Origin: a virus
Strand: one strand, 5' to 3'
Virus record (IMG/VR): IMGVR_UViG_3300009177_000082
Span: 1-33,750 of that record
Length of the DNA stretch: 33,750 nt
Position numbers and translations under genes: made by a program. This document shows positions 6,244 to 33,750 of the stretch, in pieces. Under the pieces are notes generated by a model that worked only from the letters and a program-made list of their open reading frames with translations, was not told where the DNA came from and did not search any database. Positions within the stretch are counted from its first letter, which is position 1; every line of letters begins with the position of its first letter.

Positions 6244-6482
6244 CGCTTGGGCTCCGGGCATGACCACTTGTCGAGCAGCATCCGATTGTGGCGATCGGCG
6301 CGAGCGGCAGCGCGGCGACGGTATTCGGCGATTGAGTCAGCTCGGACTGCGACGAAGAAGCCGGCTATGCCGCCGATGGCGAGCGCTGCGCTTAGCCAGG
6401 GGAGCACGTGCGCCGCGATGAGGGCCATGCTGGCCAGCAGCATCACGCACAGAATCGTCCCGACGATATATTGCCACCTCAT
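6240..6482 (-). CDS. Small membrane protein with two transmembrane segments
   Basis: The 80-residue protein has two hydrophobic segments, at about residues 5-28 and 29-47, joined by a very short turn. A basic cytoplasm-like tail (EYRRRAAARADRHNR) follows. It is linked by ATGA overlaps to both neighbours. The topology is clear from composition, but the function is not. Two-segment phage membrane proteins can be holins, yet this gene is far from any endolysin in the window, so no such claim is made. Confidence 0.6.
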   Translation of the reverse strand: MRWQYIVGTILCVMLLASMALIAAHVLPWLSAALAIGGIAGFFVAVRADSIAEYRRRAAARADRHNRMLLDKWSCPEPKR

Positions 6483-11512: not shown

Positions 11513-11944
11513 ATGTCCGCTTACCTCTGCGATTCCGCCCATATCTCGTTTCTCGCTGGCTACGCCGTGATCCACAACCTGTGGCGTCCCGACGCTGAGG
11601 CGCTGACCGAGGCGCACTCGACCGGCCGCACCGACGCTGAGGTGCTTGCCCGCCGCCTCCACAGCGCCAACTGCACGAGCCTGATGGCCCGCTACGGCTC
11701 GCGAGCTGGCGAGATGATCGGTGATATCGACGGCTTCGTTTTCGACGCGAAGGCCGCGAGCCGCCCGAAGGTACTCGCGACCTCAGCGGTCTCCGCGATC
11801 AAGTCCGCGCGGTGCTTCGCGTATCAGGCCTGCGAATTCAAGGGTTGGGACGAATCGCCTGAAGCCGAGGTGATTGAATCGATCATCCGCCACGCGATCC
11901 CACGCCTCCCGGGCTATGAGACGGCCTCGTGGGGGGCGCCGTGA
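11513..11944 (+). CDS. Hypothetical phage accessory protein
   Basis: The 143-residue protein has the feel of a family found in many phages and prophages. It has an N-terminal AHISFLAGYAV segment, a central run of small residues, and a C-terminus with YQACEFKGWDESPEAEVIESI and IPRLPGYETASWG. The family is recalled from pattern only and has no known function. It is the first gene behind promoter A, with AAAGG before a C9 tract upstream of the ATG. It overlaps the next gene by GTGA. Confidence 0.7.
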   Translation: MSAYLCDSAHISFLAGYAVIHNLWRPDAEALTEAHSTGRTDAEVLARRLHSANCTSLMARYGSRAGEMIGDIDGFVFDAKAASRPKVLATSAVSAIKSARCFAYQACEFKGWDESPEAEVIESIIRHAIPRLPGYETASWGAP

Positions 11945-12117
11945 AAAGGGTCTACCTCGTGCAGTCCTGGGACCATTCTGGCGCCCTCACCAACCACTAT
12001 CAGGTCGTGGTCGAGACGGAGGGAGAGCTGGTCGATCTGCGCGCCTCGCTCGCCAAGCGGGCCGCGCGGGTGTTGATCACTCGCGACCCTGACCCGGCAG
12101 CCGCGCGCCACGCCTGA
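11941..12117 (+). CDS. Small hypothetical protein
   Basis: The protein is 58 residues from the GTG at 11941, chosen because it overlaps the upstream TGA as GTGA. A GTG at 11929 is also in frame. It contains an alternating beta pattern (RVYLVQSWDHS, YQVVVETEGELVDLRA). A run of seven T residues follows the stop at 12119-12125. I see no convincing stem before it, so termination there is uncertain. Confidence 0.55.
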   Translation: MKRVYLVQSWDHSGALTNHYQVVVETEGELVDLRASLAKRAARVLITRDPDPAAARHA

Positions 12118-12133
12118 ATTTTTTTAGCACCCT

Positions 12134-12175
12134 GTCGATTTGCCCTTTACCTTTATACGCGGCTAGCCGCATAGT
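12134..12175 (+). promoter_or_regulatory. Operator-promoter B, probably leaderless
   Basis: The box GTCGATTTG (12134-12142) is followed by a -35 TTTACC (12146-12151). An 18-bp spacer holds most of the palindrome TACGCGGCTAGCCGCATA (12156-12173), and the -10 CATAGT is at 12170-12175. Relative to copies A and C about 9 bp, close to one helical turn, is missing between the box and the palindrome. The ATG at 12181 is only 5 nt beyond the -10, so transcription would start at or next to the start codon. Confidence 0.7.
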
Positions 12176-12180
12176 AAGAC

Positions 12181-12318
12181 ATGGCCAACGCAACCCGCCC
12201 GGTTTCCGCCCCCTCCGTCGCCCCGATCTCCCAGGCCATGGCGGCGATCGATCTCTACGAAGCGGTGATGTCTGGCCGCCACAGCGGTCTCCGCGCCGCT
12301 CGCGTACCGCAATCCTGA
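12181..12318 (+). CDS. Short protein behind leaderless promoter B
   Basis: The 45-residue frame starts at the expected transcription start of promoter B and has no ribosome binding site, as expected for a leaderless mRNA. The product is Ala-rich, with a helical centre (SQAMAAIDLYEAVMSG). The start is comparable to the 55-residue gene behind promoter C: ATG lies 5-7 nt after the -10, and the proteins begin MANA and MTNA. Its stop falls inside a copy of the dispersed palindrome. The function is unknown. Confidence 0.55.
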   Translation: MANATRPVSAPSVAPISQAMAAIDLYEAVMSGRHSGLRAARVPQS

Positions 12319-12330
12319 CACCTGACAGGA
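12313..12330. promoter_or_regulatory. Dispersed 18-bp palindrome, copy 4
   Basis: The left arm TCCTGACA has one mismatch and the right arm TGACAGGA is perfect. It is the only intergenic copy in the plus-strand block. It overlaps the stop of the 45-residue gene and lies 53 nt before the next ATG. Confidence 0.55.
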
Positions 12331-12383
12331 AACCGCGTCAAGCCTGACCAGCTCGGCGCCTCAACCCAAGAAAGACACCCGAC

Positions 12384-12702
12384 ATGACGACCAACGCTCA
12401 GAACCCCTTCGAAGCCGCCGGCCGCGCCAAGAAAGTAGCGGCGCTCGTCGCCCACTTCGACGCCCTACCTGCACGGCTGTGGTCTGCACCCCATCAAGGA
12501 CGCTCCCGCCATGGTGAATGCTCTCGAGTACATGAAAGCCCCCGCCTGGTCGGCTCACGCTGCAGCGGCTGGGCTGAAGAACCCGCCGAGCGAGCTCACT
12601 GTCGCCGAGGTGCTGGCGGTGTATCAGGCGCGCGCGAAGCTCGACCCCGAAGCGGTCGCGGCGCTCGAAGGTGAAGACCCTTTCGCGCGGGTGTCGGCGT
12701 GA
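12384..12702 (+). pseudogene. Small phage gene split by a one-base frameshift
   Basis: The frame from 12384 codes for MTTNAQNPFEAAGRAKKVAAL up to residue 27 and then turns into Arg/Ser-rich antisense-like sequence. The frame reaching the stop at 12702 codes for a sensible protein, with DAPAMVNALEYM, PPSELTVAEVLAVYQARA and a GTGA overlap with the next gene. Skipping one C in the CCC run at 12463-12465 joins the two into a 105-residue protein. That reading gives a continuous helical domain. A true mutation, a sequencing error in the C run, or programmed +1 frameshifting are all possible. If the downstream part is expressed alone it could start at 12511. Confidence 0.65.
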
Positions 12703-12851
12703 GGCCCAAGCCCTGCCCCGGCTGCTCTCGCTCTCGCCGCGCTTGCTGGGAGTCCCCCTGCATCCATCTTCGCGTCTTGCTCCGGGGAAGCCTCTCTCGG
12801 CTCGCCAAGTGGGTCGCTGCTGGCGGTGGTCGGCTGGTCGCCAATGGCTGA
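12699..12851 (+). CDS. Tiny Cys-rich protein
   Basis: The 50-residue frame begins with GTG overlapping the previous stop as GTGA and ends overlapping the ATG of the next gene. Its first 21 residues contain CPGCSRSRRACWESPC, four cysteines spaced as in a small zinc-binding site. The rest is basic. Position and couplings support it, but codon evidence in so short a gene is limited. Confidence 0.45.
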   Translation: MRPKPCPGCSRSRRACWESPCIHLRVLLRGSLSRLAKWVAAGGGRLVANG

Positions 12852-13032
12852 CCTGCGCCTGCGCTTCTCTTCGGAATCCGCCTACCAGGGCCGTCACAAT
12901 GCTCGGCTCGAGTCGATGCTCATCGTGCTCGAGAGCACCGGGCGGGACCTCGAGCGGAGCACGGCCCGCTTCCGGGAAGCGAACGACAAGCTCGAACAGA
13001 ACCTGAAAGGCGCGCCGCGCGATGTCCGCTGA
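12844..13032 (+). CDS. Small helical hypothetical protein
   Basis: The product is 62 residues from the ATG at 12844, which overlaps the end of the upstream tiny gene. An ATG six codons earlier is less well placed. The sequence is highly charged and helical (HNARLESMLIVLESTGRDLERSTARFREANDKLEQNL), probably a coiled coil. It overlaps the DUF4942-like gene by 11 nt. The function is unknown. Confidence 0.6.
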   Translation: MADLRLRFSSESAYQGRHNARLESMLIVLESTGRDLERSTARFREANDKLEQNLKGAPRDVR

Positions 13033-14047
13033 AGTCCAAGAGATCCCGCAACTCGCTCTCGCGACCCCAGACCGCTCGGACTGGGGCGCTTGCGGCAATT
13101 GCGGCCAGGACTTGCCCTACGGCGGGGACCTTTGCGACGCCTGCTCGATGCCGCGTCACTGCTCCGATTGCGGGGTTGAAATCGCGCTGGATGATGGCCG
13201 GGCCTGCGCCGCCTGTCGCGCGTATGCACGCAGCGAGGCCGGTGACCAGCTCGCTGCGCGCCTCAGCCCGGCGGAGCTCGTGGCCGTCTACCAGAAAGCA
13301 GACCGCGAGATTCGCCAGGGCTTCGCGTTGATCGCGAGCGCGATGGGCGCCATCAACGGCGCATTCACGCTCGACAAGCCGAGCGCCATCAACATCCAGG
13401 ACGGCCGAAACTACATCGACTTCGAGAAGCCCGAGGCGCGGCTGAAAGAAGTCCGCCGCGCGATCTGGCGCGCCATGGTCGAGCGACTTGAGATCCGCCG
13501 ACTCATGTCGGTCAAGGCCTGGGACGAGCTGACGAAGCAGATCGACAAGGGAGACGTACCCGAGCTCACGGAGGAGGCGATCGCGGCGATGGTCAAGCAA
13601 TTCGCTGACGCCGCGCCATCGATGCTCGAGCAGGCGGTAGCCGAGGTATTCGACTTTCTGCGTCCGCCGCACAGCGAGTACAAGCGCAACTCCGAATACG
13701 AAGTCCCCCGCCGCGTCGCGCTGACGTTGGTGATCGATACCTGGTACACGAGGACCTTCCCGAGCAAGTGCCTACAGCCGCGTCACCAAGCGGAGCAGCA
13801 GCTGACCGCGCTGGAAAATGTCTTCAGCTCACTCGACGGGAAGGGCTCGACCAGCAAGGGATACGTGAGCAATCTCTCCGAGGCCATTCGCAAGACGGAG
13901 CGCGGCGCGCTCGGATCGACGGAGTATTTCGAGTTTCGCGGCTTCAACAACGGCGCGTTGCATCTGACGTTTCGGCGACTCGACCTTCTCCAAAAATTCA
14001 ACCAGATCGCCGGCGGCGCGCGCCTCCGTTCGAAAGGAAACCCATGA
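13022..14047 (+). CDS. DUF4942-like protein with N-terminal zinc ribbons
   Basis: The 341-residue protein starts with two adjacent zinc ribbons (CGNCGQDLPYGGDLCDAC and CSDCGVEIALDDGRACAAC). The rest resembles DUF4942: VERLEIRRLMSVKAWDELTKQI, an EVFDFLRP segment, QQLTALENVFSSLDGKG, and the C-terminal FRGFNNGALHLTFRRLDLLQKFN. DUF4942 proteins are frequent in prophages and mobile elements, sometimes joined to methyltransferase domains, but have no settled activity. It is the largest gene of the accessory block and lies mid-operon behind promoter B. Confidence 0.75.
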   Translation: MSAEVQEIPQLALATPDRSDWGACGNCGQDLPYGGDLCDACSMPRHCSDCGVEIALDDGRACAACRAYARSEAGDQLAARLSPAELVAVYQKADREIRQGFALIASAMGAINGAFTLDKPSAINIQDGRNYIDFEKPEARLKEVRRAIWRAMVERLEIRRLMSVKAWDELTKQIDKGDVPELTEEAIAAMVKQFADAAPSMLEQAVAEVFDFLRPPHSEYKRNSEYEVPRRVALTLVIDTWYTRTFPSKCLQPRHQAEQQLTALENVFSSLDGKGSTSKGYVSNLSEAIRKTERGALGSTEYFEFRGFNNGALHLTFRRLDLLQKFNQIAGGARLRSKGNP

Positions 14048-14271
14048 TCAAACTCATCCTGCTCTCGCTCCTGCTCACTCTCTCCGCCTGCGGCGGCGCC
14101 CCGCCCACCAGCCCATGCGACACGACCACCGGTGAAGCCGGCGCGCCTGCTACCGAGCCCTGCAATCAAGAAGCCGCCCTTGCCGCCTTCCGTGCTGCTC
14201 GACACGAAGAAGGCCAGGTGGGGGAGTGGGTGATCTCTCCTGACTGCGTAGTGACTCAGGTAGCGCAATGA
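14044..14271 (+). CDS. Predicted small lipoprotein
   Basis: The product is 75 residues from the ATG at 14044, which overlaps the upstream stop as ATGA and has AAAGGA just upstream. Residues 1-14 form a signal peptide (MIKLILLSLLLTLS) and the lipobox LSAC places the lipidated cysteine at residue 16. The mature part has two further cysteines in a Pro/Thr-rich stretch and ends with WVISPDCVVTQV. An outer- or inner-membrane lipoprotein made from an early accessory operon could act in superinfection exclusion; that role is speculative. It overlaps the next gene by ATGA. Confidence 0.65.
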   Translation: MIKLILLSLLLTLSACGGAPPTSPCDTTTGEAGAPATEPCNQEAALAAFRAARHEEGQVGEWVISPDCVVTQVAQ

Positions 14272-14630
14272 CGGAGCAGATCTGTCCGAAGTGCAGCCGC
14301 CCGATCAACCCCGACGGACCCTTCCGCCCGGGTGACTGCTACCACACGCTGAAGTCCGCGAGCTCCCCGCCGGCGCCCGACCCAACCAGCGAAGAGGTAC
14401 GCCGCCTCCGCGCTGAGCTCGACCTCCTGAAGATCGAGCACGCCAAGCCCCACGAGCAGCGCGAGCTCGAGCAGGCCATCGTGTCAGCCGAGCTCGAGAT
14501 CCGCCGGGTGACGAGTCGCCTCCGCGGCTTCGGCGCGCCGCAGTCGGCGTTTCACAGGGAGCTTTCTGTCCCGACGAAGCAGCTCTACGATGCGCTCGAC
14601 AAGCTGGCGGCGCTGCGGGGTGAGCCGTGA
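14268..14630 (+). CDS. Zinc-site plus coiled-coil hypothetical protein
   Basis: The 120-residue protein begins with CPKCSRPINPDGPFRPGDCYH, a likely zinc site. A long charged helical region follows (EEVRRLRAELDLLKIE to AELEIRRVTSRLRG), probably a coiled coil. It is coupled by 4-nt overlaps to the lipoprotein gene and the ASCH gene. The function is unknown. Confidence 0.6.
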   Translation: MTEQICPKCSRPINPDGPFRPGDCYHTLKSASSPPAPDPTSEEVRRLRAELDLLKIEHAKPHEQRELEQAIVSAELEIRRVTSRLRGFGAPQSAFHRELSVPTKQLYDALDKLAALRGEP

Positions 14631-15046
14631 TCCTGAGGTGCTTGAGCGTGCGCCAGCCGTGGAGCCAGGCCATCGTTTTGGGGTGGAAGTCGATCGAAAA
14701 CAGGCCGCAATACCGCCGCTACCGCGGCCCGCTTCTCATCCAGTCCGGATCCAAACCCGACGATAGCTTCGACGAAGCCTGCGCGACGGTCGAGCGGGTG
14801 AGCGGCCGCAAGCTACCCGACGAGCTCCGCTTCGGCGGGATCGTGGGCGCCGTGAACCTGGTAGATTGCCTCCCGCCGCTGAAGCACCATGACGGCCGGT
14901 GGCGCGCAGCGGGCCAGTACGGGCTCGAGCTCGAGCAGGCGATCACGCTCCCATTCCGACCCTACAAGGGGGCCCTCGGTCTTTTCAAGGTCGAGCTCAC
15001 GCCCGAAGAAGAGCAGGCTCTCAGAACAGCAGGACTGATCCCATGA
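14627..15046 (+). CDS. ASCH-domain protein
   Basis: The 139-residue protein starts with the ASCH signature: LSVRQPWSQAIVLGWKSIENR at residues 6-26, then RGPLLIQSG and later GGIVGAVNLVDCLPP. ASCH domains have a PUA-like beta-barrel that binds RNA or modified nucleotides; some are nucleases or deaminase-like enzymes. Phages often carry stand-alone copies in accessory operons. The start is GTG, overlapping the upstream stop as GTGA. The specific substrate cannot be judged. Confidence 0.85.
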   Translation: MILRCLSVRQPWSQAIVLGWKSIENRPQYRRYRGPLLIQSGSKPDDSFDEACATVERVSGRKLPDELRFGGIVGAVNLVDCLPPLKHHDGRWRAAGQYGLELEQAITLPFRPYKGALGLFKVELTPEEEQALRTAGLIP

Positions 15047-15261
15047 GATACCGATTGCAGCATGCGCTTTCCCGCGACGTGGCCGGCGCCGACTTCTTCG
15101 AAGAAGTCAACGTTTCGGACGCGCTCATCATTCCTAGGATCGGCGACACCGTCCACGTGCAAGGCTTGGACTACCAGGTGGTCTCTGTCTGGCACGATGT
15201 AATCGTGACGGGCATCGCGAAGGCAGAAGCCGGAGACCCGCCAACGGTCAGGGTGAAGTAG
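15043..15261 (+). CDS. Small beta-rich hypothetical protein
   Basis: The product is 72 residues from the ATG at 15043, which overlaps the ASCH gene's stop as ATGA. The second half (IIPRIGDTVHVQGLDYQVVSVWHDVIVTGIAKA) looks like a small beta-barrel of the type seen in many phage accessory proteins. The stop at 15261 directly abuts the next ATG. The function is unknown. Confidence 0.6.
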   Translation: MRYRLQHALSRDVAGADFFEEVNVSDALIIPRIGDTVHVQGLDYQVVSVWHDVIVTGIAKAEAGDPPTVRVK

Positions 15262-24418: not shown

Positions 24419-24883
24419 TCAAGCGACGTGCTTCCAGATTCGGCGATTCAGGATCAGCCAGGCGTGGCTCTTGTAGAGCCCGAAGCGCGCTGCGAGGGTG
24501 GTGAGCGGAGCTGTTCCCTTCAAGGCGCGTAGCTCACGCACAAGATCCTCCGTTATTCGCGCCATTCCATGGCCCTCTCCGCGGGCGCCCCGTTCTTTCG
24601 CGACGCAGTCAGCGCGATTAGCGGCCGTCGTACCCGGGAAGACGTGTGACGGATTGCAGCACGCTGGGATATCGCACTCGTGCATGGCGATCAGCTGCGG
24701 ACGTAGGAAGACCCAAGCGTCACCGTAGAGGTTGACGGTCGCGAGCTCCCCGCAGGCCTCGCAGCGCCAGTCCGTTGGACGACCGCCCCAGGCCGACAGG
24801 ATCAGCCAGGGATGACGGCTGTCGGGCTTCCGGTTCTCGTCGAAGCGCTTGGGCTCGAGATCGAGCAGGGAGAGCTGGTTCAC
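24419..24883 (-). CDS. HNH homing-type endonuclease
   Basis: The 154-residue protein has a CEAC pair at 41-44 and the core MHECDIPACCNPSHVFPGTTAANRADCVAKERG (H68, C70, C75, N77, H80, N89). This is typical of free-standing phage HNH endonucleases. It ends in the usual DNA-binding tail with a helix-turn-helix-like RITEDLVRELRAL and LTTLAARFGLYKSHAWLILNRRIWKHV. It should cut a specific site in related genomes and so spread by homing. It is inserted between the helicase gene and the ligase fragment, and may have caused the latter's loss. Confidence 0.85.
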   Translation of the reverse strand: MNQLSLLDLEPKRFDENRKPDSRHPWLILSAWGGRPTDWRCEACGELATVNLYGDAWVFLRPQLIAMHECDIPACCNPSHVFPGTTAANRADCVAKERGARGEGHGMARITEDLVRELRALKGTAPLTTLAARFGLYKSHAWLILNRRIWKHVA

Positions 24884-26613
24884 GCTGCGTTCGCTTTCTT
24901 CCGGCCCTTGGCCAGGAACTGCTCGGCCAGCGTGCGAACCCGATCGCCGCTCCGGTCGAGCTTTTCGATCAAGTCCTCGTCCGGATTGCGGAGCCCTTCG
25001 ACTTGACTCCGCTTCACGCCGAGCACGTCGGCCATCGCAGGGTCCGAGCCGCTATCGGACAGCAAGTAATAGACGACCGTCGGCTCCTGCTTTCCGTCGC
25101 GGTCGACACGGTCCGTGCATTGCGAGTGCACACCGGGGCTCCAGTCGAGTTCGCCGAAAACTACCACCGCGTTCGGTACGGCTTGGAGCCCATCCAGGCC
25201 GGCGCCGCTCCGAAGGCTCATGATCAGTAGCTTCGACTCGCCCTCGATGAACTTTCGCCCCGCCTCGGCCTTTTGCGTAGCGCTCTCGCTTCCGGTGTAC
25301 AGCACCGGATTCAGGTCGGCGAGGCGCTCCATCCAGATCGAGTAAACGTCGCGATGCCATCCGAACAGCACCACCGGCTCGTCGTTCCCGGTGATGAGCA
25401 TCCGAACGAATTCGGCTACGTACGGCGCTTTCGCGACGCCGGTGGCGTGGCGCACCATCATGTCGAAGTCGCCCGCAGCTTTCATGCGGTCGAATTGCGA
25501 GCCGTTTCGCTCGACGATGATCTGAGCGAGCTTCTCGGCGGCGCCGCTGATCTCCTTCAGCGGTGCCGAGTCGCAATCGATCTCGTGCGAGATCTTGATC
25601 ACGTCGGGTAGCTCGCGCCCAACCCCCTTCCGGGTGCGCCGCAGCATCAGGCCCGCCGAGCGGAGCCAAGTCCCGAAAGCCTTCGGGTCCTTCAGGTTGG
25701 CGCGGCCGCGCGCATCCGTCGCGCCGCAGTGCTCGCGGTGAAACTCGTCCTTCGTCCCCAATGTGTCGGGCGGTGCAATCGCCTTGAGCACGTTGTAAAT
25801 CTCGCCCCCGTAGTTGTAGATCGGGGTCGCTGATAAGCCGATCCGCCAGCCCACCGAGCCAGCAATCTCGTATGCCGCGGCGCCCTTGTTCGAAGCGGTC
25901 CCGGTGCGCAGCTCCTGGATTTCGTCGAAAACCACCGAATTGACCAGCGGGGCCAGCGTCGTCGACCACCCGGCGAGGCGCGAGTAGCAGGTGATCACGA
26001 CATCGGGGAACTGACCCGGCAATGCCAACTGGGCGCCCCTGGTCTTCTTCGGCGCGGCGAGGTCGTAAGGCTGAGCGCCTTTGACGACGTGCGTGGTCAG
26101 CGCCGGCGCGAAGCGTTGCAGCTGTTCGCGCCACTGTCCCATCAGATGCGTGAGCGTTACGACAACCGCCGGGCGCAGCCTCGGATCCGTGAGCGCGCAG
26201 ATTGCCGAGCACGTCTTGCCGATGCCAGTGTCGTCAGCGAGCAGCAGGCCGCCCATGCGAATCCACAGGTCGGCGCCTACGCGCTGGTAGTCGCGCGGCG
26301 GGATCGCCAGCTCGAAGGCGCGCGGGGGAAGCTGGCCGGAAAGCATCTGCTCGACCAGCGACTCGCGCTCACGGTGCTCGGCGGCGCGAGCGGCGAGGCG
26401 CGAGCGGTCCGCCTCGGTCATTTCGAGCTCGTAGCGCTCCAAGAACCACAGGAGCTCCCGGCAATTCTCGAGGGAATCAGCGAGCTTTATCTCGCCGGCC
26501 GTGAATTGCGCAGCCTTCTCGAACAGGCGTTTCACGCGGATTGCGACGTGCGGCTGCGCCTTGACCAGCCATCTGCTGGCGGCCGCGTCGAACGCGAGGC
26601 TCCCGACGCTCAA
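24880..26613 (-). CDS. SNF2-family DNA helicase/translocase
   Basis: The 577-residue protein carries SNF2 motifs in order: PRDYQ at 106-110 (Q motif), ADDTGIGKT at 126-134 (motif I), VFDEIQEL at 228-235 (motif II), GLSATPIYN at 259-267 (motif III), LFGWHRDV at 416-423 and MSLRSGAGLDG at 465-475. QCTDRVDRDGK at 498-508 is motif VI. It should move on duplex DNA using ATP. The start is TTG with a TTGA overlap. The gene just upstream encodes a small PD-(D/E)XK nuclease, so the pair may act as a helicase-nuclease. Phage SNF2 proteins are thought to aid replication or recombination. Confidence 0.9.
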   Translation of the reverse strand: MSVGSLAFDAAASRWLVKAQPHVAIRVKRLFEKAAQFTAGEIKLADSLENCRELLWFLERYELEMTEADRSRLAARAAEHRERESLVEQMLSGQLPPRAFELAIPPRDYQRVGADLWIRMGGLLLADDTGIGKTCSAICALTDPRLRPAVVVTLTHLMGQWREQLQRFAPALTTHVVKGAQPYDLAAPKKTRGAQLALPGQFPDVVITCYSRLAGWSTTLAPLVNSVVFDEIQELRTGTASNKGAAAYEIAGSVGWRIGLSATPIYNYGGEIYNVLKAIAPPDTLGTKDEFHREHCGATDARGRANLKDPKAFGTWLRSAGLMLRRTRKGVGRELPDVIKISHEIDCDSAPLKEISGAAEKLAQIIVERNGSQFDRMKAAGDFDMMVRHATGVAKAPYVAEFVRMLITGNDEPVVLFGWHRDVYSIWMERLADLNPVLYTGSESATQKAEAGRKFIEGESKLLIMSLRSGAGLDGLQAVPNAVVVFGELDWSPGVHSQCTDRVDRDGKQEPTVVYYLLSDSGSDPAMADVLGVKRSQVEGLRNPDEDLIEKLDRSGDRVRTLAEQFLAKGRKKANAA

Positions 26614-26975
26614 AACGCCCCCACGTGGAATGCGGCGACCGGCTTGGCGCGGAGTTCGTTCGGTAGGCCTCGCAGGTGAGCTCGGCGAGTCGTGATCAGG
26701 ACGACAGCCGAGAGCTCCGCCGCGGCACTGTAACGGTCGAGCTGGCGGAGCACGGCCGCCGGCGATCCGTCAATCTTCAGCTCGAGCCCCACGCCATCGA
26801 CCACAAAGTCGATGCGATTTCGCTTGTCGCCATCAAGCGCTACCTCGGCGCGGAACTCGAAGCCTGCCGACTCGAGACGCGCGCGCACGATCGCGCTCAA
26901 GCCTGCCTCGTCGGCAACGGCACACGACAGCCCAGCGAAAGCGCGGCGAAGGTCGGCCATGGTCGTGGCCTTCAC
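26610..26975 (-). CDS. Small PD-(D/E)XK-type nuclease
   Basis: The protein is 121 residues from the GTG at 26975, which overlaps the upstream stop as GTGA. The core is RIDFVVDGVGLELKIDG: Asp56 followed by ELK (E65, K67), the nuclease active site. SPAAVLRQLDRY with Gln78 and the strand AVVLITTRR follow, as in compact phage endonucleases and VRR-NUC-like proteins. It is immediately upstream of the SNF2 helicase and overlaps it by TTGA, pointing to joint action. The substrate is unknown. Confidence 0.75.
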   Translation of the reverse strand: MKATTMADLRRAFAGLSCAVADEAGLSAIVRARLESAGFEFRAEVALDGDKRNRIDFVVDGVGLELKIDGSPAAVLRQLDRYSAAAELSAVVLITTRRAHLRGLPNELRAKPVAAFHVGAF

Positions 26976-27145
26976 AAGGCGCCCCGCAGAGCGTTGTCGT
27001 TCGCCGGTACCGCGAACGTCGACCCCAAGGTCGGCGGCAGCCCTTCGAGCGGGGAGCCGAAGAGGCGCAGCGTCCACCCCTTGTCGTCGTTGCCGGTCAT
27101 TGGTTTGCCGAACAGAGTCGGCGGGGGCACATCTTTATTACTCAC
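26972..27145 (-). CDS. 57-residue hypothetical protein
   Basis: The frame begins with GTG overlapping the upstream stop (GTGA) and ends overlapping the nuclease start (GTGA), filling the space exactly. The protein is Pro/Gly-rich (VPPPTLFGKPMTGNDDKGW) with a strand pair (TLRLFGSPLEGLPP). The two couplings make it credible. The function is unknown. Confidence 0.55.
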   Translation of the reverse strand: MSNKDVPPPTLFGKPMTGNDDKGWTLRLFGSPLEGLPPTLGSTFAVPANDNALRGAL

Positions 27146-27432
27146 GTGTATTGCCCTTCTGAATGCATGGCGCGGGCGGCAGCTGCTGGGGAGCGCTGCA
27201 TCTTCTGTCGCGCATCCGCTTCCGGGACAGTAACTAGCGGTAGTTCGCCATCCCTGATGAAGCGTTCGCGGATGTTTCGCGCGTATTCGTATTCCTTTGC
27301 CGCGAGCTCACGAAGCGACTTCGGATCATCCGTTTGCGGAAGCATTTGCAGCGTCCACGCGGCTTGCCGAAGCCAGAACCACCGCACGTATCTCACCTGC
27401 CAAGGTAAGTCGGTCGATGATCGCTCAGCCAC
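27142..27432 (-). CDS. Hypothetical aromatic-rich protein
   Basis: The 96-residue protein begins with GTG and overlaps its upstream neighbour by 8 nt. The N-terminal part is unusually rich in aromatic and basic residues (WQVRYVRWFWLRQAAWTLQML) and then becomes helical and charged. The pattern could be an amphipathic helix at a membrane or protein surface. No family was recognised. Confidence 0.55.
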   Translation of the reverse strand: MAERSSTDLPWQVRYVRWFWLRQAAWTLQMLPQTDDPKSLRELAAKEYEYARNIRERFIRDGELPLVTVPEADARQKMQRSPAAAARAMHSEGQYT

Positions 27433-27613
27433 GCTTCACCTCGATCGAGTCGGCGAGCACGAGCAGCTGCGCCGCGAGCGTTCGCGCCGCGCCCGCGGTC
27501 AGCGACGCATCACACGTCAGCCGAAGGCGCTGCCCCTCTACCTTCAGCGTGCCAAGGCGGAACGGTGGGAGCTTCGCCGCCTTGTACTCTTCGAGTTCGG
27601 TGACGGTGCTCAC
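27425..27613 (-). CDS. Small hypothetical protein
   Basis: The 62-residue protein has a GTG start in a GTGA overlap. The second half (RLRLTCDASLTAGAARTLAAQLLVLADSIEV) is a strand followed by a helix. This resembles the 77-residue protein two genes upstream, which also has a strand region and a helix of type QARAVAGSLCRMAERIER. The two may be distant paralogs. Confidence 0.55.
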   Translation of the reverse strand: MSTVTELEEYKAAKLPPFRLGTLKVEGQRLRLTCDASLTAGAARTLAAQLLVLADSIEVKRG

Positions 27614-27969
27614 AGCAACACCGCCATCAGGTCAGAGGTAGAAACCCAAACCTCGTCCGCTTCTTTGCTCGCGGCGAGCAGTCGCCGAGCCTTTTCCTCG
27701 GCCTTGTACGGCTCTTTCGCGAACATGTAGTTGAGGCTCCAGCTCCAATCGCTGCACAGGTCCCGGATTACGGCCTCGCGCTCGGAGCTCTGGCGAAACC
27801 AACGCCGCCTGCTCGATTTACGGCTCTCGACTTCAGCGGTGATCTTCGCCTCGAACGGAGCAAGGTCTCGCGCGTGCGCAGCTTGACACCGAGCAATCGT
27901 CGCCTCGCAGAGCTCAGCCACCCGCTTCGACGGTATTTTGACCAGTGAGGTCGAGGGGCATTCGCTCAT
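27610..27969 (-). CDS. Hypothetical helical protein
   Basis: The product is 119 residues from the ATG at 27969, chosen for its ATGA overlap. It is charged and helical, with two cysteines 7 residues apart (CEATIARC), a basic segment (RKSSRRRWFRQ) and a C-terminal helix (AEEKARRLLAASKEADEVW). The function is unknown. Confidence 0.55.
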   Translation of the reverse strand: MSECPSTSLVKIPSKRVAELCEATIARCQAAHARDLAPFEAKITAEVESRKSSRRRWFRQSSEREAVIRDLCSDWSWSLNYMFAKEPYKAEEKARRLLAASKEADEVWVSTSDLMAVLL

Positions 27970-28199
27970 TTCGCCACGTCCGTTTCCACGATGCGAAACC
28001 GCTCGATCCGCTCCGCCATGCGACAGAGCGAGCCCGCTACAGCTCGCGCTTGAACCGGTGTCCAGTGCAGTCGCACGTCGGAGAGCGGTACCCGAAGGAT
28101 CACGAGATCGTTCTCGGTGGTGATTACGACTTCGGTGATCACGCGATAGGCGACAGCGCGGACGGCGGCGCCGAGAGTAGTGAGGGCGAGGTTGCTCAC
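27966..28199 (-). CDS. Small hypothetical protein
   Basis: The protein is 77 residues from the GTG at 28199, in a GTGA overlap. It has a beta-rich core (RVITEVVITTENDLVILRVPLSDVRLHW) and a C-terminal helix (VQARAVAGSLCRMAERIERF). The order of strands then helix is shared with the 62-residue protein downstream. No family was recognised. Confidence 0.55.
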   Translation of the reverse strand: MSNLALTTLGAAVRAVAYRVITEVVITTENDLVILRVPLSDVRLHWTPVQARAVAGSLCRMAERIERFRIVETDVAK

Positions 28200-28576
28200 G
28201 CCGACGCCTCCGGCCACTCTTTGGCCATCGCTGCGGCGACCTGTTCGGGGTCAATGCCGAGTTCGTGCTCCAGATAGCCAGCGATCATCGACCTCTCGGG
28301 GCGGTGCTGCTCGCGAGTCCAGCGAATGAGAAACTCCATGTCTTCCACGTCGATCGGCGTGTCGTCGTCCCCGTCAGCGCGCGGAGGCTTCCAGTAGCTC
28401 GGGTTCTCTTTGGCCGCGGCGCGGACGACGGCGAGCGGCAGTTCCTCCAGCCCGACGGGGCCGCGCCGAGCAGCGTGGCAACGGAATCGCTGAAGCGCGC
28501 AAGAAGCCTTCTTGCATGCCGAGCACACCGTCACCGGGTCGTTGAATGGAACGCTTTCAGGAAGCTTGATGCTCAC
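28196..28576 (-). CDS. Cys-containing hypothetical protein
   Basis: The product is 126 residues from the GTG at 28576, in a GTGA overlap. CSACKKASCALQRFRC near residue 18 could bind a metal. An acidic helical C-terminal half follows (DVEDMEFLIRWTREQH, MIAGYLEHELGIDPEQVAAAMAKEW). It is the first of a run of four Cys-rich proteins (28196-30396, one other gene between). The function is unknown. Confidence 0.55.
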   Translation of the reverse strand: MSIKLPESVPFNDPVTVCSACKKASCALQRFRCHAARRGPVGLEELPLAVVRAAAKENPSYWKPPRADGDDDTPIDVEDMEFLIRWTREQHRPERSMIAGYLEHELGIDPEQVAAAMAKEWPEASA

Positions 28577-29058
28577 GGCTCGTCCTCCCCGCCGCACTCC
28601 CAAGGGTGAGGCAAGGCCAGCATGCGGCTCTCCGCCGTGGCTCGCGGCTGGGCTTTGCGGTCGGCGGCGTCCATGCGAGCGCGGGCATCGGCTCCTTTCA
28701 GGTCCATCATGCGTCGCTGATTCTTTTCGGATCCGTAAACGCGAAGATGGCAGTAGCAGCACTCGTCCCCCATCGTCGCGGCAATCGGGCGCTCGGGTCG
28801 GCTGCACTCGCGGCACTCGGGCGCCAATCGCGCGACCGCTCGCGAAAGCTCAGCCTCATGCGAGCGCGGCGGGTCATCGCAAATCGGCGGCGCGGGGATG
28901 GTGTCGTTCGTATGTCCCGCCTCGGCGCGGCGCGCTCTCACGCGCAGATGCGCATCTGGTCCTGTGCAACTGTAACAAAGCGTGCAGTGGCTCTCGAGAT
29001 CATCGATCATCAGGAGCCGCACGGCGTGCGGGCCTTCGCATAATTCACACTTCGCCAT
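28573..29058 (-). CDS. Hypothetical protein with two zinc-finger-like sites
   Basis: The 161-residue protein has CELC at 4-7 with CTLCYSC at 25-31, and CREC at 82-85 with CCYC at 100-103. These are two likely zinc sites joined by a charged linker. The start ATG overlaps the upstream stop as TAATG. A nucleic-acid or protein-binding adaptor is plausible. No family was recognised. Confidence 0.6.
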   Translation of the reverse strand: MAKCELCEGPHAVRLLMIDDLESHCTLCYSCTGPDAHLRVRARRAEAGHTNDTIPAPPICDDPPRSHEAELSRAVARLAPECRECSRPERPIAATMGDECCYCHLRVYGSEKNQRRMMDLKGADARARMDAADRKAQPRATAESRMLALPHPWECGGEDEP

Positions 29059-29348
29059 TACGACTTCCTCCCAATCTTCTTCTCTGCTCGTGCAACTGAG
29101 ACCTTGCGGCGGAGCTCGCGGTCTGACGGTGGGCGTTTGATTCCCTGCAGCTCGTCAGCGAGCGCAGCCGCGCGCGCGAGAACAGCGGGTGATGGGCTCC
29201 AGGCGACCACCGCGGCCACGAGCAGCCGGGCGAGTTCCGGCGCGATTGGCCCTTCGCTCTTTATCCGGAAGCTCTGAAACCAGACCTGCAGGCGGAAGAC
29301 GGTTTTGCCCGGGAAGCGGGCCTGAAGCGGGGCGTTGCGGCGGGTCAT
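29058..29348 (-). CDS. Small basic hypothetical protein
   Basis: The 96-residue product is basic, with a hydrophobic helix (PELARLLVAAVVAW) and a Lys/Arg-rich end (RELRRKVSVARAEKKIGRKS). It is coupled to both neighbours by short overlaps. The function is unknown. Confidence 0.55.
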   Translation of the reverse strand: MTRRNAPLQARFPGKTVFRLQVWFQSFRIKSEGPIAPELARLLVAAVVAWSPSPAVLARAAALADELQGIKRPPSDRELRRKVSVARAEKKIGRKS

Positions 29349-29839
29349 TTACCGACTCCGCGCAATAGTCCGAGGGCACCGCGCCGAACGCTGAAGCGAT
29401 CCGCTTTCTTCTTGGCGGCCTCTCGCGCTCGTCGCGCTCCCGCGCAGGGCGGATACAGATTCTCTCGCCTCGGCGAATAGTCACCGTGACCAGGATCACC
29501 GTTCGTGAAACGAACCGGCATCGCGACATGGCAAAACATCGGCTCGTCACTGTCGATCAGGCACTGAATTTCGAACGCTTCTTCCGGGTCCTTTGAGCGG
29601 AATAAGCAATCGGCGCAAGGCTTCCCTCGGCGCCGCTCGTGAGCCTCCCATGCCAAGGTTTCGCACTTGCGATGGTGCTCCGTGGAAACCCCGTCACAAG
29701 TGCAGTGGTACTCGCCGCGTGCCGCGGCGCCCATGCACTGCGGAAAGCCGTGCAGGAATTCGCAGTTGTGGTCGGCTTGCCAAGCCGCGAGCGGCTCAGG
29801 TGGCCATCGGTCATCCGGCAGACACGTCTCCGCGATCAT
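29345..29839 (-). CDS. Cys/His-rich phage protein, unknown function
   Basis: The protein is 164 residues from the ATG at 29839, in an ATGA overlap. Residues are spaced for metal binding: CEFLHGFPQCMG, YHCTCDG, and GKPCADCLFRSKDPEEAFEIQCL with PMFCHVAMP. The last segment resembles small Cys-rich proteins seen in many phages, whose function is not known. The C-terminus is basic. It is part of the Cys-rich gene run. Confidence 0.6.
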   Translation of the reverse strand: MIAETCLPDDRWPPEPLAAWQADHNCEFLHGFPQCMGAAARGEYHCTCDGVSTEHHRKCETLAWEAHERRRGKPCADCLFRSKDPEEAFEIQCLIDSDEPMFCHVAMPVRFTNGDPGHGDYSPRRENLYPPCAGARRAREAAKKKADRFSVRRGALGLLRGVGK

Positions 29840-30396
29840 GTCCGCACCTGACCCTTCGCCGCGCGGCCGGCCGCTGGGCTTATTCCGCCGCGCCCGCTGC
29901 ACGATTGGCAGCGCCGTTCGCTACAGCTGAAACCAAACCATTCGAGCGTCTTCCCCGACCCGCCGCACTCCTCGCACTCGGTGTCCCGGTCAGGAGTCCC
30001 AAGCGCTCCCGAGCTCATGGCCCGAGCCTCGATCGGGAGCTCGGCGCGGAGGCAGTCGCACTCCGGATCGTCAGCGCCGTGGAAGTAGTTCTCGGTCCGG
30101 TAGCACCGGCGCAGGCCGAGGACGGTGGCTAGGTTGGGGCGGCCAGAGCCGGCGTGACGGAGGCGAATCGGTTGCGCGATCGCGCCGTGGTAGGGGAGGC
30201 AGCGCTCGCACCCTCGGTCGAACCCGTGGGCACCCGGGCAGCGGGCCAGACGGAAGCCCTTCCGGACGGCGTAGTGCTGGTGGTCTCCTTCGAGCACGTC
30301 GGCACGCTCGAACCCCTTGGGGGTCCGAACGAAGGCGCCGCCGCCGAATCCGGTGAACCGGACGATGTTAAGACCCGTAGGGATACGGCGGCTCAC
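29836..30396 (-). CDS. Zinc-finger protein with DnaJ-type CxxCxGxG pair
   Basis: The 186-residue protein has a C-terminal DnaJ-like zinc motif (CEECGGSGKT and CQSCSGRGG). Its N-terminal half contains further Cys/His residues (ARCPGAHGFDRGCERCLPYHG and ECDCLRAE). The start is GTG in a GTGA overlap. DnaJ-type zinc domains bind proteins or RNA, but no J-domain is present. The function is unknown. Confidence 0.6.
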   Translation of the reverse strand: MSRRIPTGLNIVRFTGFGGGAFVRTPKGFERADVLEGDHQHYAVRKGFRLARCPGAHGFDRGCERCLPYHGAIAQPIRLRHAGSGRPNLATVLGLRRCYRTENYFHGADDPECDCLRAELPIEARAMSSGALGTPDRDTECEECGGSGKTLEWFGFSCSERRCQSCSGRGGISPAAGRAAKGQVRT

Positions 30397-31058
30397 CGCG
30401 CACCCGACTTCGCGATGTAGACCCTGGTAGTCTTCCGGAGCGCGCGACCGATCTCAGCGGGGCGGGCGTGGTCGGGTGATTCGGAGAGGGCGGAAGCGAA
30501 GTCCAGCGCCTCTTGGTCCGGAAAGTTGAGCGAGGCGAATGGCCCGAAGGCCTCGACAGCCTTTCGGTCGTACGCGCGGGCCGCCTCCGCCGGATCGGTG
30601 AAGACGCCCAGGTACAGCTGGCGCCGCTTCCCGTTCGGCTTGATCTCGCCGGCGCAGATCGAGGCTTGCCACTTCTTCGAGCCAGAATTCCACGTGACCC
30701 CCTTGTAGCCGCCGAGTTTTTGGCGCTTGGAGCTCGTGACGTTGGTCGCATTCTGGCGTGGCGTGCACGGACGCAGGTTGCGCCGCTGGTTGTCGAGCCC
30801 ATCGCCGTTCTCGTGGTCGATGTACTGGCTGGACGGGCAGCCGAGCACGAAGTTGTGCAGCGTCTGGTTCGTAATGGTGCCGCGCTCGGCTCGCGGCAGA
30901 CTGCGCTGGGCGTAAAACTTGCCAGGCTGGCTCTTCTTGGACTTCAGTCGCCAGCGGAACTGGCTGACGCGCTCAGCGTCTTCGGCGTCGACGAGGGCGA
31001 AGCGGCCGGAGCGGCCGGAGCGGCCGAGCGGGATCTGGACCGGAGGATCGGCACTCAT
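30393..31058 (-). CDS. AP2-domain HNH endonuclease
   Basis: The protein is 221 residues from the ATG at 31058, which overlaps the integrase stop as ATGA. The HNH core is TLHNFVLG (H68), YIDHENGDGLDNQRRNL (H82, N94) and TPRQNATN (N103). An AP2 DNA-binding domain follows at about residues 117-180 (YKGVTWNSGSKKWQASI, YLGVFTDPAEAARAYD). Such proteins are phage homing endonucleases. A short tandem repeat in the DNA encodes GRSGRSGR near the start. It is the first gene of the operon beyond attP. Confidence 0.85.
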   Translation of the reverse strand: MSADPPVQIPLGRSGRSGRFALVDAEDAERVSQFRWRLKSKKSQPGKFYAQRSLPRAERGTITNQTLHNFVLGCPSSQYIDHENGDGLDNQRRNLRPCTPRQNATNVTSSKRQKLGGYKGVTWNSGSKKWQASICAGEIKPNGKRRQLYLGVFTDPAEAARAYDRKAVEAFGPFASLNFPDQEALDFASALSESPDHARPAEIGRALRKTTRVYIAKSGAR

Positions 31059-32326
31059 GCGAGCACCCCGACAGATCCGGCTGCGACGCATAATCGCTGT
31101 CGCATCCGTGTAACGTCGACCGCCCCGGCTCGCACCAGTTGGCCCCAGTTAACAGTAGATAAACCGATTAAATTCGCTGGTTCGTCAACTTCCGCCGCGC
31201 CAGAAAGCGGTTTCGTAAACCGCAGGTCTCGAGTTCGAATCTCGAAATCGGCTCCGGGTTTTTCTGCCGGATCGCGGATTGGTTCCGCGGTTGTATCGAT
31301 CACGCTGTCGCGTTGGCGTAGCGGCAAGGCCGTCAGCAGCTTCGCCTCTGCGAGTTTCCCGAGCGCTTCGGGGCGCGGGCGCGCGTAAATGCGATCTACC
31401 AATGCGCGCGTCGTGTGACCGAGCAGGCGGCGCGTAACATCTGCGTCCACACCTTCTTCGGATAGGAGCGTCGCGTGTGTACGCCGGAAGTCGTTCGGTG
31501 TGGCCTGATCTATTCCAGCACGCTTGCACGCGGCCTTGATATCCCTGTGTAGGTTATTCGGCTCCTCGCCCAGCGGTAGGTAGAGCGCGGCAGCCTCGAG
31601 GAGTTCTCGGAACAGGCTTAGGATCGGGACGCGGCGCTTGGACTTCTTCGTCTTCGTGCCGCGTATGAAAACGATGCCCAGCGTCCAATTGATGTCGGCT
31701 GGAGCGAGACGGTAGATTTCTGCCAGCCTGCAGCCCAGTGCAACGGCGACAGCGACAACAGCCATCAGTTCCGGCTTGAGCTGCTCGAGCAGCGGGAATA
31801 GTTCCTCCCGTGTCAGCGCGCGCTCGCGCGGCTCATATCCGGTCTGCAGGTCAGGCGGGCAGAGCGCGTCCACGTTGCCGGCGTAAACGCCAGCCCGCTG
31901 CGCGGCTCTCATCACAATGCACAGGTGGTCGACCTCTTTTCGAATGGTATGGTCGGTCACGTCCTCGGCTCGGCGTTTCTCGACATAGGAGTCGACGAAC
32001 GGCGGCGTGATTTGGATCAGTAGAGTGTTTGGCGCCAGGCGAAGCCAGTGACCGAGCTTCGTTCGGTAGATGGAAATGGTCGCCGCGGACCGCTTCTTCT
32101 TGCCCGTCTCTTTTTGCGCAATCACGCGGGCGATCCATTCGTCGAGGCGCGCCGTTTGCGAGGCTGCGTAGGCCGGATCGACAGCGAGCCGTTCGCGCTG
32201 GGCGCGGAAGGACCGAGCAGCTTCGATGTCGCGGCAGTACGTCGACTGCGGCTTTTTTGTGACCGGATCGGTCCGGATCCACCAGATTGGTCCGCGCTTG
32301 TAGAGGCCATCTCGTTTTTGAGCCAT
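31055..32326 (-). CDS. int: Tyrosine recombinase (phage integrase)
   Basis: The 423-residue protein has a Shine-Dalgarno GAGG 8 nt before its ATG. The N-terminal arm-binding region (GLYKRGPIWWIRTDPVTKKP) and core-binding domain precede the catalytic domain. Catalytic residues are Arg200 (GCRLAEI), a lysine near 225 (TKTKKSK), Arg281 in the box NDFRRTH, where Asn278 takes the usual His place, His304 (LLGHTT), and the nucleophile Tyr314 (RIYAR). About 110 residues follow the Tyr, including the part encoded by the tRNA-like attachment site. It should catalyse integration and excision at a threonine tRNA gene. Confidence 0.92.
   Translation of the reverse strand: MAQKRDGLYKRGPIWWIRTDPVTKKPQSTYCRDIEAARSFRAQRERLAVDPAYAASQTARLDEWIARVIAQKETGKKKRSAATISIYRTKLGHWLRLAPNTLLIQITPPFVDSYVEKRRAEDVTDHTIRKEVDHLCIVMRAAQRAGVYAGNVDALCPPDLQTGYEPRERALTREELFPLLEQLKPELMAVVAVAVALGCRLAEIYRLAPADINWTLGIVFIRGTKTKKSKRRVPILSLFRELLEAAALYLPLGEEPNNLHRDIKAACKRAGIDQATPNDFRRTHATLLSEEGVDADVTRRLLGHTTRALVDRIYARPRPEALGKLAEAKLLTALPLRQRDSVIDTTAEPIRDPAEKPGADFEIRTRDLRFTKPLSGAAEVDEPANLIGLSTVNWGQLVRAGAVDVTRMRQRLCVAAGSVGVLA
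31207..31255 (+). other. attP core: 3' half of a tRNA-Thr(CGU)-like gene inside int
   Basis: On the plus strand the sequence folds as the 3' half of a tRNA. It has an anticodon stem GCGGT/ACCGC with loop TTCGTAA (anticodon CGT at 31214-31216), variable loop AGGTC, and T-stem TCGAG/CTCGA with loop TTCGAAT. An acceptor strand AATCGGC, discriminator T and CC follow. No 5' half exists upstream, so it is not a gene but the identity block that rebuilds a host tRNA after integration. It lies within codons 358-374 of int. Phage genes flank both sides, as expected of attP. Confidence 0.8.
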
Positions 32327-32463
32327 TCAGAAAACCTCTCCTCAGTAATTCGTAGAGAATCTTTGCCGCACGGAATCGCCCCCGCTTGGCGCATGTAATC
32401 GAACGCGCGGCGCACCGTGCACCGCATGCGAGTGGCAACATCGGAAGGAGTCAGAATAGTCAC
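32122..32463 (-). CDS. Excisionase-like helix-turn-helix protein
   Basis: The protein is 113 residues from the GTG at 32463, with GGAG 8 nt upstream. Residues 1-47 form a MerR/excisionase-type domain (LTPSDVATRMRCTVRRAFDYMRQAGAIPCG, LRITEERFSEWL). The rest is basic and low-complexity and overlaps the start of int by 205 nt in another frame. It probably directs integrase towards excision or binds an attP arm. Position just before int supports this. The overlapped tail may not be functional in itself. Confidence 0.7.
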   Translation of the reverse strand: MTILTPSDVATRMRCTVRRAFDYMRQAGAIPCGKDSLRITEERFSEWLKNEMASTSADQSGGSGPIRSQKSRSRRTAATSKLLGPSAPSANGSLSIRPTQPRKRRASTNGSPA

Positions 32464-32513
32464 TCCAGAGCTCCAATCTTCGCCATCTGCACCTTGCCGG
32501 TCTCTTGCTTCAT
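32460..32513 (-). CDS. 17-residue coupling micro-gene
   Basis: The frame encodes MKQETGKVQMAKIGALE. It starts in an ATGA overlap with the gene upstream and ends in a GTGA overlap with the excisionase-like gene. Its end contains that gene's ribosome binding site. Its likely role is translational coupling. Confidence 0.4.
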   Translation of the reverse strand: MKQETGKVQMAKIGALE

Positions 32514-32782
32514 GCTGCCCACCGCTTAACCATCGCCACCGCCGCTGGCTTCTCCTGCGGAATGAACCGACTGCGCCCGACACCGATCAATGCGCCAGCC
32601 CATGGTGAGTCACTGAGGCAATGGCTCGGGACAAGCCGGATGGTCCCGGCCTCGATCCACTTCCGATTCCATCGGAGCCGGTGAACCAGGCGGACGCGCG
32701 ATCGCTTTGGTCCTCGGGACAGAATCTCGACTGGCGTCGCCATGGTGAATAGACCCGTGTGGTGCATCCAGCCGCGCTTCAT
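32510..32782 (-). CDS. Small basic hypothetical protein
   Basis: The 90-residue product is basic and Trp-rich, with strands such as SRVRLVHRLRWNRKWIEAGTIRLVP and RSRFIPQEKPAAVAMVKRW. It is coupled by 4-nt overlaps to the genes on either side. It precedes the excisionase-like gene in the operon. The function is unknown. Confidence 0.55.
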   Translation of the reverse strand: MKRGWMHHTGLFTMATPVEILSRGPKRSRVRLVHRLRWNRKWIEAGTIRLVPSHCLSDSPWAGALIGVGRSRFIPQEKPAAVAMVKRWAA

Positions 32783-33075
32783 GGCTTTGGCTTTGGCTCC
32801 GTCGCCGGGTATGGGTTGGCTTGGTGGCCATCGGTGAAACTATGCTCGGCGAAATCATAGCCTTCGTTCCAGGCCCGGTGAGCGGTAGCCGCTTCGAGAT
32901 CGGCGAGCGCCTGGGCCACCGAGATCGCGTTTCCGAAGTCGAGCCCGGGCGTGGGGACTCCCGTCTCGATCCACTCTCGCTCTTCAGCGAAGAACTCTCC
33001 AGGGAACCTCCGCTCGATATCGGGGAGAGCGAGGAGGGCGGCCTCTCGGTGACGCCTTTCGATGGGGGCGATCAT
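32779..33075 (-). CDS. Small hypothetical protein
   Basis: The 98-residue protein has a charged helical N-terminus (ERRHREAALLALPDIERRF) and a second helix (ISVAQALADLEAATAHRAWNEG), and ends Pro-rich (PATEPKPKP). It is coupled at both ends by ATGA overlaps. No family was recognised. Confidence 0.55.
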   Translation of the reverse strand: MIAPIERRHREAALLALPDIERRFPGEFFAEEREWIETGVPTPGLDFGNAISVAQALADLEAATAHRAWNEGYDFAEHSFTDGHQANPYPATEPKPKP

Positions 33076-33209
33076 GGTCCATCCTTTTCAGCCCACGACA
33101 GACCGAGCAGCGGCGCCAGCGCTAGCCATGGGTGGCCGGAGATGCCGATTGCCGCGCACAGTACCAGGCAGAATGCGTTGCTCAGCAGACATTTCGTGTG
33201 GATGCTCAT
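33072..33209 (-). CDS. 45-residue membrane peptide
   Basis: The frame (CLLSNAFCLVLCAAIGISG and WLALAPLLGLSW) has two hydrophobic segments and ends in an ATGA overlap with the next gene. It starts 2 nt after the stop of the upstream gene. Phage early operons often carry such peptides. The function is unknown. Confidence 0.5.
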   Translation of the reverse strand: MSIHTKCLLSNAFCLVLCAAIGISGHPWLALAPLLGLSWAEKDGP

Positions 33210-33211
33210 CG

Positions 33212-33487
33212 TCACTGACTCATCCTCGGCCCGGCCACGAAGACCTCATCCTGGCCGGCTCCCTGGTTCCAGATGCTGCGCAGCTCCCCGAGCTCGGCGA
33301 GTCGGTGCACGCAGGCCATGTGCGTCCAGTTTGATCCTGATACGCCGGGAGCGGAGATGAGTTTCCACATCGTCGCAGCCCCGCTCAGCTTGAGGATCCG
33401 GTGTGCATGATCGCGGATCTTCAGGAACGTTTCCTGGCCTTCTTCGGTGAAGATCTCTCCTCGTTCTGCGGTGTAGGAGTAGCTCAT
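33212..33487 (-). CDS. Small hypothetical protein
   Basis: The 91-residue protein starts with MSYSYTAERGEIFTEEGQE and has a helical centre (FLKIRDHAHRILKLSGAATMWKL). It ends with WTHMACVHRLAELGELRSIW, which looks like a helix-turn-helix segment. It could be a small regulator. No family was recognised. Confidence 0.55.
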   Translation of the reverse strand: MSYSYTAERGEIFTEEGQETFLKIRDHAHRILKLSGAATMWKLISAPGVSGSNWTHMACVHRLAELGELRSIWNQGAGQDEVFVAGPRMSQ

Positions 33488-33490
33488 CGC

Positions 33491-33685
33491 TCAGCCCTCC
33501 TTGTGATCGGCGGTCCGCTTCGTCTCGACCGTGACGGTCAGGTCAGCGACCTCGGAATCGTCGATCAGCGTGGCGCTAACCCGGACCCAATACGTGTCGT
33601 GGGGTAAGCCGAGTCTTTCGGCCGCTACCTCGGCGAGGAGCTTTCGAACTTCGCGTGCGCTTAGGGTGATTTTCCCAAGGATCAT
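33491..33685 (-). CDS. Small hypothetical protein
   Basis: The 64-residue protein has a helix (SAREVRKLLAEVAAERLG) and two strands (TYWVRVSATLIDDSE, ADLTVTVETKRT). Its ATG overlaps the stop of the partial upstream gene as ATGA and has AGGTG upstream. The function is unknown. Confidence 0.55.
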   Translation of the reverse strand: MILGKITLSAREVRKLLAEVAAERLGLPHDTYWVRVSATLIDDSEVADLTVTVETKRTADHKEG

Positions 33686-33750
33686 GGTGCACCTATAGGA
33701 ACGACAGTCACAGCAACCAAAAGACCAAAGGCGAATAGGATGCTGCAGGC
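33682..33750 (-). CDS. Partial small membrane protein (5' part beyond window)
   Basis: The open frame runs to the window edge and encodes a hydrophobic C-terminus (ILFAFGLLVAVTVVPIGAP). Its TGA overlaps the next gene's ATG. The coupling supports a real gene. Only about 22 residues are visible. Confidence 0.45.
   Translation of the reverse strand, partial: ACSILFAFGLLVAVTVVPIGAP

Follow-up and report, generated by a model that had tools for sequence, protein, structure and literature searches.

What happens to a phage operon when the attachment site (attP) lies inside one of its own genes? This question is raised by the linear virus record IMGVR_UViG_3300009177_000082 of IMG/VR, which was analysed over its whole 33,750 nt (hereafter the window). 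The locus is probably a temperate-phage attachment site of the kind found in Myxococcus phage Mx8: attP lies inside the integrase gene (int), which stands within the early operon and not at its end, and integration would split that operon. Two genes are described first:

31055..32326, minus strand: int, a tyrosine recombinase of 423 aa (PF00589 over residues 175-318; phrog_1 integrase, E=2.7e-41)
32122..32583, minus strand: open reading frame (ORF) overlapping the start of int, candidate excisionase by position alone

Int belongs to the tyrosine recombinases both by its PF00589 domain and by its catalytic residues, the catalytic-type set being R200, K225, R281, H304 and Y314. Tyr 314 is invariant among seven homologues. 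Since this residue precedes the codons that carry the attP core (358-374), the active site of Int lies entirely ahead of the core. A structure model was built on a seven-row alignment (mean pLDDT 70.6). The model is confident to approximately residue 316, the pLDDT is below 50 over residues 317-423, and the C-terminal tail is predicted to be disordered. For the ORF overlapping int, domain and family profile searches gave no family match. A similar ORF is found at the same place in a related contig, L011 (5786-6205), and in Mx8 the uoi gene also overlaps int.

The core of the attachment site is located near the 3' end of int:

31207..31255, plus strand: attP core, the 3' half of a tRNA-Thr(CGU), antisense in int codons 358-374

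A tRNA-Thr(CGU) half had been proposed here in a first, sequence-only reading, and its presence was confirmed by direct reading of the plus strand. The anticodon arm is GCGGT-TTCGTAA-ACCGC, with the anticodon CGT at 31214-31216 (plus strand). It is followed by the variable loop AGGTC, the T arm TCGAG-TTCGAAT-CTCGA and the acceptor segment AATCGGC-T-CC. As expected of a half, no complete tRNA was reported at the core by ARAGORN. A 35-bp core occurs once in the window and had 0 matches in shuffles.

Two related contigs carry the same core in the same int frame, namely L002 (24 kb, Int 62% identical) and L011 (37.9 kb, Int 61% identical). In L002 the core is identical: 19/19 same-residue codons of the stretch 355-374 are identical at the DNA level, compared with a fraction of about 0.33 in codons 181-330. 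In L011 the T stem is built from other bases (CGGGT/ACCCG) while pairing and int frame are kept. As these bases differ and yet pair, L011 probably copies the tRNA-Thr(CGU) gene of another host.

The core does not stand alone, and three further features of the int 3' end have to be considered:

31305..31320, minus strand: P arm-type site TACGCCAACGCGACAG, 101 bp before the core reference base (three mismatches to TACANGGACGCGACAG)
31097..31112, minus strand: P' arm-type site TACACGGATGCGACAG, 107 bp past the core reference base, in the int tail
31055..31206, minus strand: C-terminal tail of Int, about 50 aa, predicted to be exchanged on integration and holding the P' arm (low pLDDT; largely unconserved as protein outside the arm region)

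A 16-bp direct repeat with the consensus TACANGGACGCGACAG flanks the core in the window, L002 and L011. The left copy is found at -101, -101 and -77, respectively, and the right copy at +107 in all three; in L011 the repeat is 18 bp long and perfect. No equally good match is present elsewhere in the window or in the L002 and L011 loci. From this layout, the positions and their conservation, we infer that the repeats are arm-type integrase sites. With these arms, attP would measure about 225 bp and lie wholly within int. The sequence-only reading had thus located attP correctly but had overlooked the arm sites, and the site is larger than it had described. The protein conservation that is seen in the tail (GAVD.TR.RQ) partly falls on the right arm, and may reflect a constraint on the DNA instead. 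The locus therefore combines a tRNA-derived att core in the int frame, past the catalytic Tyr, with arm-type repeats on either side of it inside int, as in an int-embedded attP of the Mx8 type.

The arrangement recurs in other phages. By a pattern scan for tRNA-Thr(CGU) halves, followed by reading of the frames, three more phages were found in which the int frame runs through the tRNA half: L058, L063 and L067, belonging to genomes G045, G046 and G047, respectively. The integrases of G045 and G047 form a second subfamily, being 33-35% identical to the window Int and 54% to each other. This subfamily has its own repeat, GTGTGYCGNNTNNGTACG, at -116 and +73, of which the G045 copies are degenerate. 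Overall, the embedded arrangement is seen in integrases as low as 23% identical, with different next genes. The placement of attP within the int 3' end is thus supported by the conservation of the core, by the arm repeats and by recurrence in five more phages as well as in Mx8. G045 also carries a 97-bp terminal direct repeat (L074/L075), so that it closes to a 37,165-bp circle and its attP form is that of the free phage. The same tRNA target is used in the usual layout at L008, L054 and L062, where att lies beside int and int points away. A scan for the arm-site pattern returned 38 loci, mostly chance matches by count; among these, tblastn detected a close Int relative only at L006 and L050, both already known.

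Downstream of attP, the genes continue in the same direction:

30393..31058, minus strand: AP2-HNH endonuclease gene, the first after attP, whose start overlaps the int stop (ATGA, 31055-31058)
29836..30396, minus strand: operon gene, 186 aa, with a 4-bp overlap with the preceding gene
27425..29839, minus strand: seven more operon genes with 4- or 1-bp overlaps throughout (29345-29839, 29058-29348, 28573-29058, 28196-28576, 27966-28199, 27610-27969 and 27425-27613)
24880..26613, minus strand: SNF2-type DNA helicase gene (PF00176, E=1.9e-16; phrog_62)
18542..19978, minus strand: DnaB replicative helicase gene (PF03796, E=3.8e-68)

A nearly unbroken chain of overlaps had been described from int to dnaB. 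It is indeed unbroken through nine genes to 27425, but the calls of a simple gene caller show two interruptions before dnaB, one of 79 bp (27346-27424) and one of 41 bp (27101-27141). An apparent 448-bp gap at 21100-21547, just upstream of the genes for a 374-aa protein and DnaB, is filled by an HNH endonuclease gene (21033-21599); together with the AP2-HNH gene, the operon holds two HNH genes. Elsewhere in the window, a block of plus-strand genes (11513-15859) is situated between two minus-strand operons; one of its products (13022-14047) is a DUF4942 protein that weakly matches a zinc ribbon.

The int stop and the next start overlap by 4 bp (ATGA or GTGA) in 6/6 embedded cases, even though the identity of the following gene varies. 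Runs of genes linked by 4- or 1-bp overlaps comprise nine genes in the window, 11 in G044, three in G001, seven in G045, six in G046 and three in G047. Overlaps of 4 or 1 bp join a fraction of 0.45-0.68 of neighbouring same-strand genes in these phages, so that the six int overlaps are no more than slightly unexpected (probability about 0.02 at p = 0.5). The chain of 4-bp overlaps leaves no intergenic space for a promoter, and in G044 and G045 this holds up to the initiator. In G044 the chain extends as far as a replication initiator (phrog_2447, E=8.8e-25); that of G045 includes a DnaA_C-like protein (weak, below the cut-off) and an initiator of the same family (phrog_2447, E=7.1e-19). In L002 a VapE-like gene (PF05272) lies downstream. 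Across the window, L002, L011 and L058 the downstream replication modules vary (DnaB, VapE-like, phrog_2447 initiator), and the int-attP module is constant. A comparison of these four loci suggests that the operon has been exchanged just after the right arm.

From where, then, would these genes be transcribed? The earlier statement that no promoter is seen between int and the AP2-HNH gene agrees with a sigma70 consensus scan, which returned no promoter on either strand of 26500-33750. This absence is weak evidence, as shuffles yield only 0.9 promoters and the scan is nearly blind in G+C-rich phages. As the window is cut short upstream, the early promoter of this phage falls outside the contig. 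In both G044 and G045, Cro/CI-like genes are located upstream of int and the replication initiator downstream of attP. G044 contains a CI-like repressor gene (5465-5896, minus strand), a Cro-like gene (5988-6251) and int (7713-8945). Its operator-like palindromes GTAACCTGTTAC and GTAAGAGCTTAC lie at 5956 and 5974, upstream of int, and a weaker pair at 5203/5221; no operator-like palindrome was found in G044 near or after attP, or by the replication genes. At L076, two pairs of GTAA-N4-TTAC palindromes (5203-5232 and 5956-5985), each 18 bp apart, bracket a CI-like gene, and these pairs are probably the operators of a divergent immunity region. Because the operators and the CI-like repressor of G044 are found upstream of int, with none near attP or the initiator, integration should detach the replication genes from the early promoter.

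The following sequence of events can be proposed. In the free circular phage, int would be read through attP into the tail, whose stop overlaps the next start, and early transcription and translation would pass from int into the replication genes. The crossover would probably occur at the anticodon loop. Integration into a host tRNA-Thr(CGU) gene would restore the tRNA, the host 5' half being joined to the core and, through it, to int. The integrated int would be cut at about codon 373 and continue for a few residues into the antisense of the tRNA 5' half. Given a canonical D arm in the host tRNA, this antisense frame would stop at once and the lysogen Int would end in ...FTKPLLYQLS*. A crossover at the anticodon loop is predicted to replace about 50 C-terminal residues, in keeping with the replacement proposed in the sequence-only reading. 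In the prophage, the early promoter, Cro, the excisionase candidate and int would be found at one end, and the replication genes at the opposite end with host DNA upstream of them. Excision would then rejoin the early promoter and int with the replication genes.

The separation of the operon follows from the gene order, provided that integration uses the 31207-31255 core. Accordingly, the earlier claim that integration would cut the operon from anything upstream of int gains support from this gene order and from its recurrence in five more phages and Mx8. The anatomy of attP, its conservation and the order of the genes are read directly from the DNA, and integration at the core, exchange of the Int tail and physical separation of the operon have good support. 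With moderate confidence, it can further be proposed that the replication genes would be poorly expressed until excision rejoins the operon, the phage thus excising before it replicates. Such a switch is plausible, though unproven, on the architecture of several phages. The wider proposal is that, in a recurrent group of temperate phages including Mx8, integration itself disconnects the replication genes from an early promoter under repressor control, and replication follows only after excision. This is put forward tentatively and we hold it to be somewhat doubtful. If true, the products made first on induction would be limited to Int and the excision functions, and the prophage would be kept from replicating in situ.

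The position of attP in int could also serve only to alter Int, yielding a shorter, weaker prophage enzyme as in Mx8 and limiting excision. The operon split would then be a side effect, and the replication genes would be served by separate promoters, located past attP or within coding genes. In Mx8, integration replaces the 112 C-terminal residues of Int by 13 and lowers its activity (PMC4701971; PMC6070905), and a 48-bp gap follows int, both of which fit this explanation. The near blindness of the sigma70 scan likewise leaves room for a promoter inside the coding sequence after attP. However, the tail exchanged in the window is predicted to be disordered, the G044 palindrome has no copy near attP or the G044 replication genes, and in G044 and G045 the genes as far as the initiator are joined by continuous 4-bp overlaps, with no intergenic room between them. 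On balance, this explanation is considered unlikely.

A regulatory role might be lacking altogether if compaction simply left int without a stop before attP, the tail being any open frame that reaches the next gene. We find this improbable, as the arrangement recurs in integrases down to 23% identity with different next genes and the arm sites lie within the frame, although overlaps of 4 and 1 bp are widespread in these phages, the protein sequence of the tail is poorly conserved, and a 50-codon open frame would arise by chance with a probability of about 0.2 at such a composition (rough estimate). Moreover, the operon would be cut on integration regardless of the cause. That the tRNA half is a decayed relic or a chance match, with the working attP elsewhere, would fit the lysogen search, which found none, but is hardly credible in view of a core perfectly conserved at synonymous sites, the compensated tRNA stem in L011 and the arm repeats at fixed spacing.

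In the search for integrated forms, a scan of genome contigs returned only distant Ints and no lysogens of the window phage, and none were found for its five related phages. No matching tRNA was present in 40 genomes of the phylum of one distant match. The scans of viral contigs for tRNA-Thr(CGU) halves yielded one complete unrelated prophage (L007/L008) and several whole tRNA genes, and a profile search of these loci detected no lysogen of the embedded-attP kind. The prophage in question (IMGVR_UViG_3300031825_000025) resides in tRNA-Thr(CGU); it has the whole tRNA at one end and, at the opposite end, a 3' half from the anticodon stem onwards, and int is clear of att. Among annotated phages, no tblastn match was obtained to the window Int or the L067 Int. 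Terminase and DnaB matches were all below 60% identity and give no indication of the host. As a guess, the host phylum would be Myxococcota, based on a Polyangia-like lipoprotein ORF in L002 and the likeness to Mx8.

How does this locus compare to known systems? Tn916 and mycobacteriophage BPs had been named as precedents in the sequence-only reading. Both share the logic, in other genes, but the closest precedent, Mx8, had been missed. Tn916 is a conjugative element, with transfer genes instead of phage replication genes, and its att is not known to lie inside int. Tn916 has transcripts that arise only once its att ends have been joined in the circular form (PMC6540685); the gene order in the window would fit such a read-through across the joined att. 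In the integration-dependent immunity of BPs, attP is located inside a coding gene and integration alters its C terminus, thereby acting as a switch (PMC4557955), but here the gene carrying attP is the repressor and not int. The archaeal integrases of the SSV (suicidal) type do have att inside the int gene (PMC8371274). They differ in that the catalytic domain is separated from the rest of the enzyme on integration, which disrupts it; this type does not apply to the window, as all catalytic residues of Int precede the core.

Att sites within the element's own integrase gene have been described in very few elements (PMC4701971), one of which is Mx8, with attP inside int (PMC6070905). Like the window, Mx8 has a tyrosine integrase, an attP with an antisense tRNA segment in the int 3' end, an ORF overlapping the int start (the excisionase ORF uoi in Mx8, a candidate by position in the window) and, to either side of the core, direct repeats that resemble arm sites. 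The Mx8 9-mer GTGACAGCG has only three copies in 49.5 kb (6370, 6381 and 6582), all in int and flanking the core (L015). Its last seven bases, GACAGCG, match the window arms, and the copies are likely Int arm sites. Mx8 differs from the window in its tRNA, in its 112-residue tail and in having a 48-bp gap instead of an overlap after int. Homology of the two Ints beyond the general fold was not detected (BLASTP E 2.4), so that the window attP is said to work like that of Mx8, and membership of the same integrase family is not claimed. In the Mx8 record (AF396866), uoi overlaps int and is followed on the same strand by early genes, among them the DnaC-like p20, and by the terminase. The order is thus the same in Mx8 (uoi-int-attP-DnaC-like-terminase).

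An int-embedded attP is thus already known from Mx8, and its operon-splitting consequence is a testable, unproven hypothesis; no such proposal for Mx8 was found among the titles and abstracts retrieved, which cover the literature in part. As one tRNA target alone gave six phages from two or more integrase subfamilies, the arrangement is more frequent than had been assumed. Should the splitting of the operon be of consequence, it would provide a simple physical rule by which excision precedes replication, and would secure lysogeny a second time, in addition to the repressor. As a tractable cultured phage, Mx8 is well placed for addressing this question.
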